The notes beneath the pieces are model-generated. The model was not told the origin of the DNA and did no database searches. It saw nothing but the letters and a program-made list of their open reading frames with translations. 56,665 nt of DNA from Thermoleophilaceae bacterium (GTDB lineage Bacteria; Actinomycetota; Thermoleophilia; Solirubrobacterales; Thermoleophilaceae): the NCBI GenBank assembly GCA_019683805.1, contig JADGHQ010000010.1:1-56665 (forward strand), read 5' to 3'. This document shows, in pieces, positions 1,520-8,437 of the stretch. The position numbers and the translations under genes were made by a program. Position 1 is the first letter of the stretch; every line of letters begins with the position of its first letter.

Positions 1520-2718
1520 AGCCCGAGCTGGCGCCCGAGGATCTCGCGCATGATCTCGTCGGTGCCGCCGCCGATCGGGCCGAGGCGCAGGTCGCGCAGC
1601 GCGCGCTCGATCTCGTACTCCTTCATGTAGCCGGCGCCGCCGTGGATCTGCAGCGCCGCGTCGGCCACCTCGAAGGCGTCGCGCTGGGTCTTGAGCTTGG
1701 CCATGGTCACCTCGCGCACCGCGTCGTGTCCCTCGGCGAACAGTCGCAGCGCGTTGTAGGTCAGCGCCCGCCCCGTCTCGAGCTTCAGCGCCATCTCGGC
1801 GAGCTTGTGGCGGATCGCCTGGTGGCGGCCGATCGGCCGGCCGAACGCCCGGCGCTCGCGCGCGAACTCGAGCGTGCGCTCGAGCGTCGCCTGCATCGAG
1901 CCCACGGCGCCGAGGGCCATCAGCAGCCGCTCCCACTGGAAGTTGGCCATGATCAGGTAGAAGCCGCGGTTCTCCTCGCCGAGCAGGTTCTCCTCGGGGA
2001 CGAGCACGTCGTCGAAGGCGAGCTCCGCGGTGTCCGACGCGTGCCAGCCGAGCTTGTCCAGCTTGCGCGACACCGAGAAGCCCTCCATCCCCTTCTCGAT
2101 CACGAGGAACGAGAGCCCGCGGTGCCCGCCCTCGGGCGTGGTCCTCACGGCCGTTACCACGAAGTCCGCCCGCACGCCGTTGGTGATGAACGTCTTCGAG
2201 CCGTTCACGACGAAGCCGCCGTCGACGCGCCGCGCGTGCGTGCGGATGCCCGCGACGTCCGAGCCCGCGCCCGGCTCGGTGATCCCGAGCGCGGCGATCT
2301 TCTCGCCCCTGATCGCGGGCGCGAGGAAGCGCCGCTTCTGCTCCTCGGTCCCGAACTTCCAGATCGGCGGCGTCGCGATGCCGGTGTGGGCGCCGATGCC
2401 GGCGGCGAGCCCGCCCGAGCCGCAGCGCGCGAGCTCCTCGGCGAAGACCGCGTCGTGGAGGTAGTCGCCGCCCTGCCCGCCGTACTCCTCGGGGTACTTG
2501 AGCCCGAGGTAGCCGTGGGCGGCGAGCAGGCGGAAGACCTCGTTCGGGAACCAGCGCGCGTCCTCCCACTCCTGCGCGTGCGGTCGCAGCTCGCGCTCGA
2601 CGAAGCTGCGCGTCACCTGCCGGAAGTCCTCGTGCTCCCTGGTGAACGGGGGCGCCGGGGCGCGCGGGGCGCCCTCGCCGGGCGCCCGCCCGCTCGCGCT
2701 TGTCCACTGCCCGGCCAT
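1516..2718 (-). CDS. acyl-CoA dehydrogenase (LCAD/IVD-type catalytic base)
   Basis: FAD-dependent acyl-CoA dehydrogenase, 400 aa, which introduces the alpha-beta double bond in acyl-CoA. Visible signatures are ITEPGAGSDVAGIRT, the FITNG loop, ALQIHGGAGYMKEYEIER and the C-terminal GGGTDEIMREILGR. The glutamate found in the YEGT motif of short/medium-chain enzymes is replaced by Gly. A Glu lies instead in FQWERLL (about residue 261), where long-chain and isovaleryl-CoA dehydrogenases carry their base. The N terminus has about 25 low-complexity Gly/Ala/Pro residues before the conserved start, so the true start could be somewhat internal. It is the last gene of a three-gene operon with the MBL hydrolase (13 bp gap) and a second dehydrogenase. 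Confidence 0.94.
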   Translation of the reverse strand: MAGQWTSASGRAPGEGAPRAPAPPFTREHEDFRQVTRSFVERELRPHAQEWEDARWFPNEVFRLLAAHGYLGLKYPEEYGGQGGDYLHDAVFAEELARCGSGGLAAGIGAHTGIATPPIWKFGTEEQKRRFLAPAIRGEKIAALGITEPGAGSDVAGIRTHARRVDGGFVVNGSKTFITNGVRADFVVTAVRTTPEGGHRGLSFLVIEKGMEGFSVSRKLDKLGWHASDTAELAFDDVLVPEENLLGEENRGFYLIMANFQWERLLMALGAVGSMQATLERTLEFARERRAFGRPIGRHQAIRHKLAEMALKLETGRALTYNALRLFAEGHDAVREVTMAKLKTQRDAFEVADAALQIHGGAGYMKEYEIERALRDLRLGPIGGGTDEIMREILGRQLGL

Positions 2719-5023: not shown

Positions 5024-6832
5024 TTGAGCACGATCGAGAAGACCACCGCTCACACGAAGCACAAGCGACTCGAGCAGTGGGTGGCCGAGGTCGCGGCGCT
5101 CACCGAGCCCGCTGCCATCCACTGGTGTGACGGCTCGCGCGAGGAGTACGACCGGCTCTGCGCCCAGATGGTGGAGGCCGGCACGTTCACGAAGCTCGCC
5201 GACGCGAAGCGCCCGGGCTCCTACCTCGCGCGCTCCGACGCGGGCGACGTGGCGCGCGTCGAGGATCGCACCTTCATCTGCTCGGAGCGCGAGGAGGACG
5301 CGGGGCCGACCAACAACTGGCGCGATCCGGTCGAGATGCGGAGCACGCTGACCGAGCTCTTCCGCGGCTCGATGCACGGCCGCACGATGTACGTGGTGCC
5401 CTTCTCGATGGGGCCGCTCGGCTCCGATAAGAGCTACATCGGGGTGCAGCTCACCGACTCGCCCTACGTGGCGGTCTCGATGCGGATCATGACGCGCATG
5501 GGGCAGGCCGCCCTCGACGTGCTCGGCGAGGACGGGGACTTCGTGCCCTGCCTGCACTCGGTCGGCATGCCGCTCGACGAGGGCGTCGAGGACGTGCCCT
5601 GGCCGTGCAACGCGGACAACAAGTACATCGTGCACTTCCCCGAGACACGCGAGATCTGGTCCTACGGATCGGGCTACGGCGGCAACGCCCTGCTCGGCAA
5701 GAAGTGCTTCGCGCTGCGCATCGCCTCGGTGATGGCGCGCGACGAGGGCTGGCTCGCCGAGCACATGCTCATCCTCAAGGTCACATCGCCGGCGGGGGAG
5801 ACCAAGTACATCGCCGGGGCCTTCCCGTCCGCGTGCGGCAAGACGAACCTCGCGATGCTGATCCCGACGCTTCCGGGCTGGAAGGTCGAGACGATCGGCG
5901 ACGACATCGCCTGGATGAAGTTCGGGAGCGACGGCCGCCTCTACGCGATCAACCCCGAGGCCGGGTTCTTCGGCGTCGCGCCGGGCACGAGCAGCGACAC
6001 CAACCCGAACGCGATGGGGACGATCGAGCGCAACACCATCTTCACCAACTGCGCGCTCACCGACGACGGCGACGTGTGGTGGGAGGGGATGACCGCCGAG
6101 CCGCCCGCGCACGCGATCGACTGGCGCAGCGGCGAGTGGACGCCCGCCGCGGACGGCCCCGCCGCGCACCCGAACGCGCGCTTCACCTGCCCGGCGTCCC
6201 AGTGCCCGTCGATCGCGCCCGAGTGGGAGGACCCGGCGGGCGTGCCGATCGACGCGATCCTCTTCGGCGGGCGCCGCTCGACTGTCGTGCCGCTCGTGCA
6301 CGAGGCGTTCGACTGGGAGCACGGCGTCTTCCTCGGCTCGATCATGTCGTCGGAGACGACGGCCGCAGCCGCGGGCCAGGTGGGCAAGCTCCGCTTCGAC
6401 CCGATGGCGATGCTGCCGTTCTGCGGCTACAACATGGCCGACTACTTCCGCCACTGGCTGGAGATCGGCCGCCGCGAGGGCGCGCGGCTGCCGCGCATCT
6501 TCTACGTCAACTGGTTCCGCAAGGACGAGTCGGGCCGCTTCCTGTGGCCGGGCTTCGGCGAGAACTCCCGCGTGCTCGCATGGGTGTTCGGCCGCTGCGC
6601 CGGGACGGCCGACGCCGACGACACGCCGATCGGCCGCGTGCCGACGCAGGGCGGGCTCGACACCGAAGGGCTCGACGTCTCCGCCGCGGACATGGCGGAG
6701 CTCCTGAAGGTCGATCCGGAGGAGTGGAGGGCCCAGCTCCCGCAGATCAGGGAGCACTACGCGCAGTTCGGCGACCGCCTGCCGTCCGAGCTGCGCGACC
6801 AGCTCGAGGCGCTCGAGCGCCGGCTGGGGTAG
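5024..6832 (+). CDS. pckG: phosphoenolpyruvate carboxykinase (GTP)
   Basis: GTP-dependent PEP carboxykinase, 602 aa, the usual length of this family. It converts oxaloacetate and GTP to PEP, CO2 and GDP, the entry step of gluconeogenesis in the cytoplasm. Diagnostic parts: [18 protein letters not shown], the kinase-1a loop [13 protein letters not shown] (about 266-278) with its reactive Cys, [11 protein letters not shown] for metal binding, [13 protein letters not shown] and [14 protein letters not shown]. The start is TTG at 5024, preceded by GGCAGGAG about 11 bases upstream; no ATG fits better. The gene is transcribed alone and ends in a strong hairpin terminator. It lets the cell make sugar from the acids produced by the surrounding acyl-CoA genes. 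Confidence 0.97.
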
Positions 6833-6852
6833 CGCGCCCGCCGCGATGCTGG

Positions 6853-6886
6853 AAGGGCCCGGCGCCGCCGGGCCCTTTGCGTTTCC
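6853..6886 (+). terminator. rho-independent terminator after pckG
   Basis: A perfect 11-bp stem (AAGGGCCCGGC, loop GCC, GCCGGGCCCTT at 6853-6877) is followed by TTGCGTTT. It starts 20 bases after the pckG stop. The opposite strand carries the end of the convergent CAP-domain gene at 6894, so the hairpin may serve both directions. Confidence 0.85.
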
Positions 6887-6893
6887 CGAGCGG

Positions 6894-7352
6894 CTAGCGG
6901 TGCCCGAGCTGCCCGACCCAGATGGTCGCCCGGTACCCGTGGAAGCGCCCTGACGTTCGCCCCAGGCCGATCGAGCGGAACCGGCTGCTCAAGAGGATGG
7001 CGCGGTGCTCGGGCGAGCTCGCCCAGGCCCGGAGCGTCAGGGCGACGGCGGGCGCGCGGCCGGTGTGGAAGGCGAGCACCTCGCCGAGCCGCCTGAAGCC
7101 GCCGCTCGCCTCGATGCGGGCGTCGTGGCCGAAGCGGTCCTCGCGCATCAGCTCGCGGGAGAAGGCCGACGCCGACCGGGTGAGGCTCCGCGACACGATC
7201 AGCGGCCGCAGCCCGTGCGCGCGGCGAAGGTCGTTGATCTTGCGGACCATCAGGTCCGTGGCGCTCGGGCCGTCGGCGACGGCGGGCGGCATCGAGGCGG
7301 TGAGGGCGGAGATAGCCACGGCACATGTTGCGAGCACACGGGCGCGGGGCAT
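6894..7352 (-). CDS. secreted CAP-domain (SCP/PR-1-like) protein
   Basis: Small exported protein of 152 aa: a signal peptide of about 26 residues (MPRARVLATCAVAISALTA... AVADG), then one CAP domain. It has the LMVRKINDLRRAHGLRPL opening helix, an FGHDARIE segment in place of the usual FxHxG, an ASSPEHRAILLSSRFRSIGLG block (the NxxxHxxxxL-like region) and a C-terminal IWVGQLG strand. Bacterial CAP proteins are found in cell walls and spore coats; their biochemical activity is mostly unknown. The ATG at 7352 follows AAGGAGG (7363-7369). Its 5' leader is a c-di-AMP riboswitch, so its production should respond to that second messenger, as seen for cell-wall enzymes in other Actinobacteria. Confidence 0.88.
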   Translation of the reverse strand: MPRARVLATCAVAISALTASMPPAVADGPSATDLMVRKINDLRRAHGLRPLIVSRSLTRSASAFSRELMREDRFGHDARIEASGGFRRLGEVLAFHTGRAPAVALTLRAWASSPEHRAILLSSRFRSIGLGRTSGRFHGYRATIWVGQLGHR

Positions 7353-7384
7353 CGCTCGAAGGCCTCCTTGGTCGAACCTCTCTC

Positions 7385-7537
7385 GTGCGCCGGCGGGGTT
7401 AGCTGACGGGCTCGCGTCAAGAGAGCGACGCTACGGCGCGGTGCTGCGTCCGATTCGCCCCGCCGGGAGCTCTCGCCCCCCGCTTCTCTGGTTCCCCCAC
7501 TCGCCCCGGGTCGCCCCGGGAGCGATTAGGCGGCGCG
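7385..7537 (-). ncRNA. cyclic di-AMP riboswitch (ydaO-yuaA class)
   Basis: Read on the minus strand the leader contains the hallmark blocks of the ydaO-yuaA class in order: CCTAATCGC near the 5' end, GGGGGAACCA, GGGGCGAATCGG, and the near-invariant GAGCCCGTCAGCTAACCCC near the 3' end. A P1 helix can form between GCGCC (7532-7536) and GGCGC (7387-7391). The ribosome site AAGGAGG lies about 20 bases after the 3' end of the aptamer. Members of this class bind c-di-AMP and usually turn genes off. In Actinobacteria they commonly precede resuscitation factors and other wall hydrolases; here the gene is a CAP-domain protein. The motif match was made by eye, not with a covariance model. Confidence 0.92.
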
Positions 7538-7538
7538 C

Positions 7539-7544
7539 AATATA
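7539..7544 (-). promoter_or_regulatory. -10 element for the riboswitch transcript
   Basis: TATATT on the minus strand, an unusually AT-rich hexamer in this DNA, lies just upstream of the riboswitch P1 helix. Transcription would begin near 7532, at the first base of the aptamer. No convincing -35 is seen 17 bases upstream. The rest of the gap to the enoyl-CoA hydratase at 7652 shows nothing else I can name. Confidence 0.6.
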
Positions 7545-7651
7545 CCGCCGACCTCGGCCGATGCGCGAGGGCCGGCGCACGCCGGGGGGCGTCCGTCGCC
7601 GCGATCCGACACAGTAGGGAGCAGCGCTTGCCACTTGCCGCGGAGGTGACC

Positions 7652-8437
7652 TTGGCCTACGAGACGATCCAGTACGCGGTGGCGCCCACCGGGGTCGCCA
7701 CCATCACGCTCGACCAGCCGGAGACGCGCAACGCGCTCTCGGACGAGCTGCTCGCCGAGCTGATCGACGCCTTCGAGTCCGCGCGCGACGACGACCGCGT
7801 GCGCTGCGTCGTGCTCGCGTCCTCGCACGAGACCGTGTTCTCGTCCGGCGCGAACCTCGGCGGCTTCTCGGGCGACGCGCCGCTCGTGCACAAGCACCTC
7901 GGCTCGGCAAAGTTCGTCAGGCTCTTCCGGCTGATCGGCGAGCTCGGGAAGCCGACCATCTGCGCGGCGGGCGGTCACGTGCTCGCCGGGGCGCTCGGCA
8001 TCGCGCTCGCGTGCGACCTCGTCGTGGCCAAGGACAGCGCCACGTTCGGCACGCCCGAGATCAACGTCGGGGCCTTCCCCTTCATGATCATGGCGCTGAT
8101 CTACCGCAACGTGCCGCGCAAGAAGACCAACGAGCTGCTTTTGCTCGGGGAGCGCATCTCGGCCGAGGAGGCGCTCGAGGCGGGCATCGTGAACCGGGTC
8201 GTGCCGGCCGAGGAGTTCGACTCCGCGGTCGAGGAGTGGGCCCTGAAGCTCGCCTCGAAGTCGCCGCTCATCATGCGGCTCGGCAAGGACGCGATGTTTC
8301 GCCAGCAGGACATGGCGTTCGCGGACGCGCTCGAGTTCCTGCACTCCCAGCTCACGATCGCGCTGTCGACCGAGGACATCGTGGAGGGCGTGAGCGCCTT
8401 CTTCGAGAAGCGGGAGCCGGTCTGGAAGGGACGTTGA
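7652..8437 (+). CDS. enoyl-CoA hydratase/isomerase family protein
   Basis: Crotonase-fold protein, 261 aa, acting on acyl-CoA. It has ITLDQPETRNALSDEL near the N terminus, the FSSGANLGGFSG oxyanion segment, KPTICAAGGHVLAGALGIALACDLVVAK and FGTPEINVGAFPF. The residues usually held by two Glu in true hydratases are not both obvious: FGTPEINVG supplies one, while the first position (AGGHVLAGALG) has Ala-Leu where hydratases have a Glu. It could thus be an isomerase, hydrolase or other crotonase rather than a plain hydratase. I chose the TTG at 7652 because GGAGGTGA lies 5 bases before it; an upstream TTG at 7628 lacks this. It is translationally coupled to the next gene (TTGA overlap). Confidence 0.88.
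   Translation: MAYETIQYAVAPTGVATITLDQPETRNALSDELLAELIDAFESARDDDRVRCVVLASSHETVFSSGANLGGFSGDAPLVHKHLGSAKFVRLFRLIGELGKPTICAAGGHVLAGALGIALACDLVVAKDSATFGTPEINVGAFPFMIMALIYRNVPRKKTNELLLLGERISAEEALEAGIVNRVVPAEEFDSAVEEWALKLASKSPLIMRLGKDAMFRQQDMAFADALEFLHSQLTIALSTEDIVEGVSAFFEKREPVWKGR

Follow-up and report, generated by a model that had tools for sequence, protein, structure and literature searches.

A predicted c-di-AMP riboswitch precedes the gene of a secreted CAP-domain protein in a Thermoleophilaceae bacterium and recurs before homologous genes of the order

Introduction

In Corynebacterium glutamicum, the c-di-AMP riboswitch of nlpC represses its gene, probably at the level of translation, and transcript levels were unchanged (PMC9960051). 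The riboswitch of Streptomyces rpfA is reported to be an OFF switch that acts by transcription termination (work of St-Onge and Elliot, summarised in PMC10117811). As both the riboswitch class and its wall-enzyme targets are already known, the finding reported here extends a known system and opens no new one.

Proteins with a CAP domain occur widely among those that bacteria secrete, and their bacterial role is poorly defined. The only evidence of function that we found for a CAP domain of the kind described below concerns DalA of Rhodobacter sphaeroides, a lipoprotein of the divisome that binds peptidoglycan (PMC10470522). Here we analyse a CAP gene in a 56.7-kb window, that is, the whole stretch of Thermoleophilaceae DNA under study (56,665 nt), for which control by a c-di-AMP riboswitch had been proposed from the sequence (the original prediction).

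Results

A full-length ydaO-class aptamer forms the leader of the CAP gene

A cmscan search of the window gave a full-length match to RF00379 (7542-7373 on the minus strand, model positions 1-134 of 134, 55.9 bits, E 2.6e-10; gathering cut-off 38 bits), and no other Rfam family exceeded its cut-off in the 56.7-kb window. This search had been proposed together with the assignment of the leader to the ydaO-yuaA class; the assignment was borne out, and the predicted coordinates were correct. The aptamer lies on the same strand as the CAP gene and forms its 5′ leader, with the ATG 35 nt past the end of P1 (Table 1). The block GTCAGCTAACCC is present as predicted. It had been called almost invariant, but in our riboswitch set it is common rather than invariant, versions with GACAGCT, CAGCTCACC, GCCAGCT and GGCAGCT occurring as well.

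A chance match to RF00379 was rejected because of the E-value of 2.6e-10 in the window and the repeated position of such matches before CAP homologues (see below). As predictions from sequence, the aptamer and its pairing with the CAP gene are well supported, and the leader RNA would be expected to bind c-di-AMP. That the aptamer is a decayed copy which has lost its response to c-di-AMP is highly improbable: its score is below the best RF00379 score in the genome (88.9 bits), but it is well over the cut-off, the conserved blocks GGGGGAACC, GGGGCGAAUC and GAGCCCGUCAGCUAACCCCG are all intact, and a pseudoknot and a promoter box are both present.

The box TATATT was found right before P1, as predicted. 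A -10-like TAnnnT occurs at the same position in 38 of 119 riboswitches; among 480 stretches of downstream DNA that served as controls, 5 have it. Transcription would start at about the first P1 base (7532). The sigma-70 promoter scan found no promoter, and no -35 hexamer was seen. The CAP gene stands alone between plus-strand neighbours, both named by sequence inspection: a convergent PEPCK-like ORF (5024-6832) and a divergent enoyl-CoA-hydratase-like ORF (7628-8437). The palindrome GGGCCCGGCGGCGCCGGGCCC at the convergent side is a possible terminator; the terminator scan, which needs a T run, did not report it.

Table 1. Features of the CAP locus (window positions).
Feature	Position	Strand	Basis and remarks
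-10-like promoter box TATATT	7539-7544	-	sequence; lies shortly 5′ of P1 strand (7532-7529)
c-di-AMP (ydaO/yuaA) riboswitch aptamer	7373-7542	-	RF00379 match
P1, CGCC with 3′ strand GGCG	7532-7529 with 7391-7388	-	cmscan structure line
Pseudoknot 5′ strand CUCUCUU, in hairpin loop	7419-7425	-	complementary to 7384-7378
Conserved block GTCAGCTAACCC	7396-7407	-	sequence, RF00379 alignment, riboswitch set
Pseudoknot 3′ strand GAGAGAG	7378-7384	-	7 pairs, one G-U
Shine-Dalgarno AAGGAGG	7363-7369	-	sequence; 10 nt before ATG, 8 nt after pseudoknot
Secreted stand-alone CAP-domain protein, 152 aa	6894-7352	-	PF00188, alignment A1, AlphaFold2 model
GC-rich palindrome GGGCCCGGCGGCGCCGGGCCC	6852-6873	.	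sequence; between convergent CAP gene and plus-strand neighbour

Riboswitch-CAP pairs recur within the order

CAP homologues were gathered from 80 relatives. Among the nearest 16 outside the window (L011-L026), which come from other genomes of the order, 11 are immediately preceded by an RF00379 match over the cut-off in the same orientation. The remaining five (L013, L020, L022, L023 and L026) showed no riboswitch at E 0.5 and none by motif, searches by which missed weak riboswitches were ruled out; these five count against our preferred explanation. Four further pairs were found (L099 in G020, L130 in G026, L160 in G003 and L078 in G044), L130 and L099 being CAP paralogues in G026 and G020, respectively. 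The predicted link between riboswitch and CAP gene is thus a repeated one: the pairing occurs across genera within the family and also in two other families of the order.

In a maximum-likelihood tree, a riboswitch accompanies 15 of the 20 rows of the CAP clade centred on Thermoleophilaceae. L078, which comes from a different family of the order, is placed together with CAP proteins that have no riboswitch (support 87/64, weak), and this placement suggests a separate acquisition. The L078 gene (L078:837-1505, minus strand) encodes a CAP protein of 223 aa whose N-terminus is longer and which contains several cysteines, and the riboswitch lies directly before its called start.

Among more distant CAP genes (L027-L039 and 40 further loci), only L160 carries a riboswitch. 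Of 20 loci taken from a class-wide search, a single one was paired, in the window's own family, and none of the 20 supplied by a phylum-wide profile search showed a pairing beyond the order. The comparison across Thermoleophilia and other Actinobacteria, which the original prediction had suggested, therefore shows recurrence within the order and no pair outside it in the loci scanned.

In L020 (G009), a c-di-GMP-I-GGC riboswitch (RF03167, 64.1 bits, 2267-2341, minus strand) lies about 340 nt upstream of the CAP gene on the same strand; the CAP gene runs from about 1925, and a GC-rich hairpin is located between the two. RF03167 matches occurred in 22 of the 31 genomes of the family search and were absent from the window's genome.

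Most other riboswitches precede genes of cell wall enzymes

The five nearest named relatives are MAGs of Thermoleophilaceae and one of Solirubrobacteraceae, in keeping with membership of the source organism in Thermoleophilaceae. In its genome (2.56 Mb, 134 contigs), the threshold of E<=0.001 leaves nine RF00379 matches, of which six exceed the gathering cut-off and the best scores 88.9 bits. One DAC-domain protein (c-di-AMP synthase, 95.6 bits) is encoded. Apart from the CAP gene (L006), the riboswitches precede genes for NlpC-like proteins with Pfam scores below the cut-off, two of the three with PG_binding_1 (L001, L002, L007), for PG_binding_1 combined with a transglycosylase-like domain (L003), for a PcsB-type coiled coil (CC_PcsB) with peptidase M23 (L005) and for DPBB_1 (RlpA-type) proteins (L008, L009). 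Counting the NlpC calls below the Pfam cut-off, targets are wall-active for seven of the eight other riboswitches, the exception being L004, where the 125-aa product of the downstream gene matched no Pfam family. Because at least seven of the eight lead cell wall enzymes, the CAP protein is probably part of the known wall-remodelling programme. In the L004 protein (L004:1121-1498, minus strand; riboswitch 71.9 bits), the N-terminal part is basic and of low complexity, and one membrane segment is likely.

RF00379 matches were present in all 61 relatives searched. For a census of targets, we took 100 riboswitches with their downstream DNA from among the best-scoring ones in genomes other than that of the window; two known CAP pairs (G023:C218 and G018:C224) were left out beforehand and are not among the 100. 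Mechanical calling gave 98 downstream ORFs. As one protein may count under several Pfam domains, the 98 genes include 30 with PG_binding_1, 24 with M23, 16 with PG_binding_3, nine with a transglycosylase domain, eight with DPBB_1, seven with FlgD_ig, four with NlpC/P60, two with polysaccharide lyase and two with CAP. When L099, whose start codon is outside the rule of the script, and the two omitted pairs are added, five of 102 riboswitches lead CAP genes. CAP is a minor but recurrent target of c-di-AMP riboswitches. The wall-type nature of the other targets and the recurring pairing thus suggest that the CAP protein belongs, as a minor but repeated member, to the known actinobacterial c-di-AMP wall regulon. 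The usual actinobacterial targets named in the original prediction, resuscitation factors and wall lytic enzymes, agree with the literature (PMC9960051, PMC10117811).

Short secreted proteins that share a PYxxGGGH...YDCSG motif form a frequent group of targets, to which L001, L002, L007 and many of L046-L145 belong. With the Pfam NlpC/P60 model, 4 of 98 proteins reach E<0.001; its response to the group is weak, and the group therefore looks like a diverged NlpC/P60 family that this model covers poorly. In the order, c-di-AMP riboswitches are also followed by two polysaccharide-lyase genes (PF14099) and by seven genes with an FlgD_ig domain.

A conserved loop-tail pseudoknot points to probable control of translation

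Complementarity between the hairpin loop and the tail is present in nearly all relatives. Where the loop departs from the consensus CUCUUUC (50 riboswitches), mean loop-tail pairing was 6.64, compared with 5.35 after permutation of partners (maximum 5.86); none of 1000 permutations was as high, a result that gives no formal probability because the riboswitch-bearing relatives share kinship. Compensated loop/tail pairs include CUCCUUU/AAAGGAG, CCUUUUC/GAAAAGG and UCACUCG/CGAGUGA. The crystallised 108-nt ydaO RNA contains the equivalent CUCCUUCG/CGAAGGAG, and the pseudoknot was termed stable (PMC5393176). In the CAP leaders of L014, L016, L018 and L019, no pseudoknot was detectable, so this subgroup may use a different expression platform, a point against the explanation preferred below.

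Between the end of the 3′ strand of the pseudoknot and the start codon lie 0-15 nt in most relatives. A pseudoknot stabilised by the ligand could therefore occlude the ribosome-binding site, which fits the translational OFF control of C. glutamicum nlpC. For the CAP gene of the window this distance is 25 nt and the Shine-Dalgarno sequence falls outside the pseudoknot, a difference from most relatives that counts against the explanation that we prefer. As the Shine-Dalgarno sequence lies 8 nt beyond the pseudoknot, occlusion in this leader would be steric. Energy folding of the leader (z 0.11, in a GC-rich RNA) is uninformative on switching.

We propose that the CAP-gene leader is a ydaO-class c-di-AMP riboswitch working as a genetic OFF switch. 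At high c-di-AMP, the aptamer would fold with P1 and the long-range pseudoknot (7425-7419 with 7384-7378), which, ending 8 nt before the Shine-Dalgarno sequence, would hinder binding of the ribosome, and no CAP protein would be made. At low c-di-AMP, the protein would be made and secreted to the wall, where it would join the peptidoglycan-binding and lytic enzymes similarly controlled elsewhere in the genome. Both the OFF polarity and the translational level of control are what we infer for this gene. Alternatively, a working c-di-AMP OFF switch might act at transcription, by premature termination or by Rho, as the position of the Shine-Dalgarno sequence outside the pseudoknot and the rpfA result of St-Onge and Elliot, summarised in PMC10117811, would allow. 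We consider this unlikely, as nothing in the leader resembled an intrinsic terminator in the terminator scan, transcript levels of nlpC did not change in C. glutamicum (PMC9960051) and the pseudoknot strand in relatives tends to sit near the start codon.

The CAP protein

The predicted stand-alone CAP protein of 152 aa is matched by PF00188 with 43.3 bits (cut-off 21.1) over residues 37-147. Its N-terminus, read by eye, resembles a signal peptide (MPRARVLATCAVAISALTASMPPAVA|D). The CAP/SCP pocket is a tetrad of two histidines and two glutamates; H76, E91 and H116, which are invariant in 17 relatives (alignment A1), may, as we assume, line this pocket. No fourth conserved acidic residue was picked out besides these in the 17 relatives. 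An AlphaFold2 model built from 17 homologues (pLDDT 87.8) supports the CAP fold, an alpha-beta-alpha sandwich, in that its nearest PDB structures are CAP proteins, the best being Borrelia BB0689 (4d53), followed by an SCP protein of Bacillus anthracis and by human GAPR-1.

The model for DalA (NCBIfam NF052539) matched residues 34-131 with 27.4 bits (E 2.6e-6), far below its cut-off of 200, and thus the domain is related and the protein is not DalA. The N-terminus also speaks against identity with DalA; by eye it is of the signal peptidase I type, no lipobox following the normal h-region. The original prediction had spoken of a family of unknown bacterial function; this is slightly out of date since DalA binds peptidoglycan, even though the match to its model is below the cut-off here.

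We suggest that the CAP protein acts on or binds peptidoglycan. The main argument is its co-regulation with wall enzymes, and the DalA match is secondary. It might instead have a role unrelated to peptidoglycan, such as lipid binding, under a working riboswitch, and share only a growth phase or osmotic state with the wall enzymes. CAP proteins elsewhere have diverse roles, some eukaryotic ones being reported to bind lipids, and we know of no catalytic activity established for the CAP fold in bacteria; moreover, no peptidoglycan-binding domain is attached to the protein. Such a role nevertheless seems somewhat unlikely, as, among the co-regulated genes to which a domain could be assigned, nearly all encode wall enzymes or peptidoglycan binders and as the weakly matching DalA family binds peptidoglycan. 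That the CAP protein is active on peptidoglycan or binds it, and that recurrent c-di-AMP control in Thermoleophilaceae places CAP proteins in the wall-remodelling set, is in our judgement an even bet.

Discussion

The aptamer, its recurrent pairing with CAP genes, the complementarity of the pseudoknot strands, the single DAC domain and the wall-dominated regulon are supported by comparison of sequences. Taken as a whole, our explanation, namely a c-di-AMP OFF switch whose pseudoknot would block translation of a CAP protein of the wall regulon, has a probability of roughly 0.7. A regulon shared with RlpA, lytic transglycosylases and endopeptidases of the M23 and NlpC-like types is a concrete clue to what a minimal stand-alone CAP protein does. 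If true, the peptidoglycan role would provide a testable function for a widespread, poorly characterised family of secreted bacterial proteins. In the open literature searched, we found no c-di-AMP riboswitch in Thermoleophilia and none with a CAP/SCP target, although Nelson 2013 and Block 2010 may list such targets.

DalA, like the protein described here, is small and exported, and its model weakly matches our CAP domain; unlike our protein, it is a lipoprotein located in the outer membrane of a Gram-negative bacterium. To our knowledge, no riboswitch is known for DalA. With the ydaO/yuaA (kimA) class (RF00379), the CAP-gene leader shares the full-length match, the conserved blocks, P1 and the loop-to-tail pseudoknot, but its Shine-Dalgarno sequence lies beyond the pseudoknot. 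The ydaO leader of Bacillus subtilis carries an intrinsic terminator, according to PMC9960051, whereas none was found in the CAP-gene leader. In Streptomyces, the same aptamer class precedes the gene of a secreted wall-active protein, rpfA (PMC10117811); its product, however, is a resuscitation-promoting factor, and transcription termination is reported for it, unlike what we propose for the CAP gene. C. glutamicum nlpC (cg2402) is likewise a wall-related actinobacterial target with a terminator-less leader and probable translational OFF control (PMC9960051), its product being an NlpC/P60 peptidase whereas the target here is a CAP protein.
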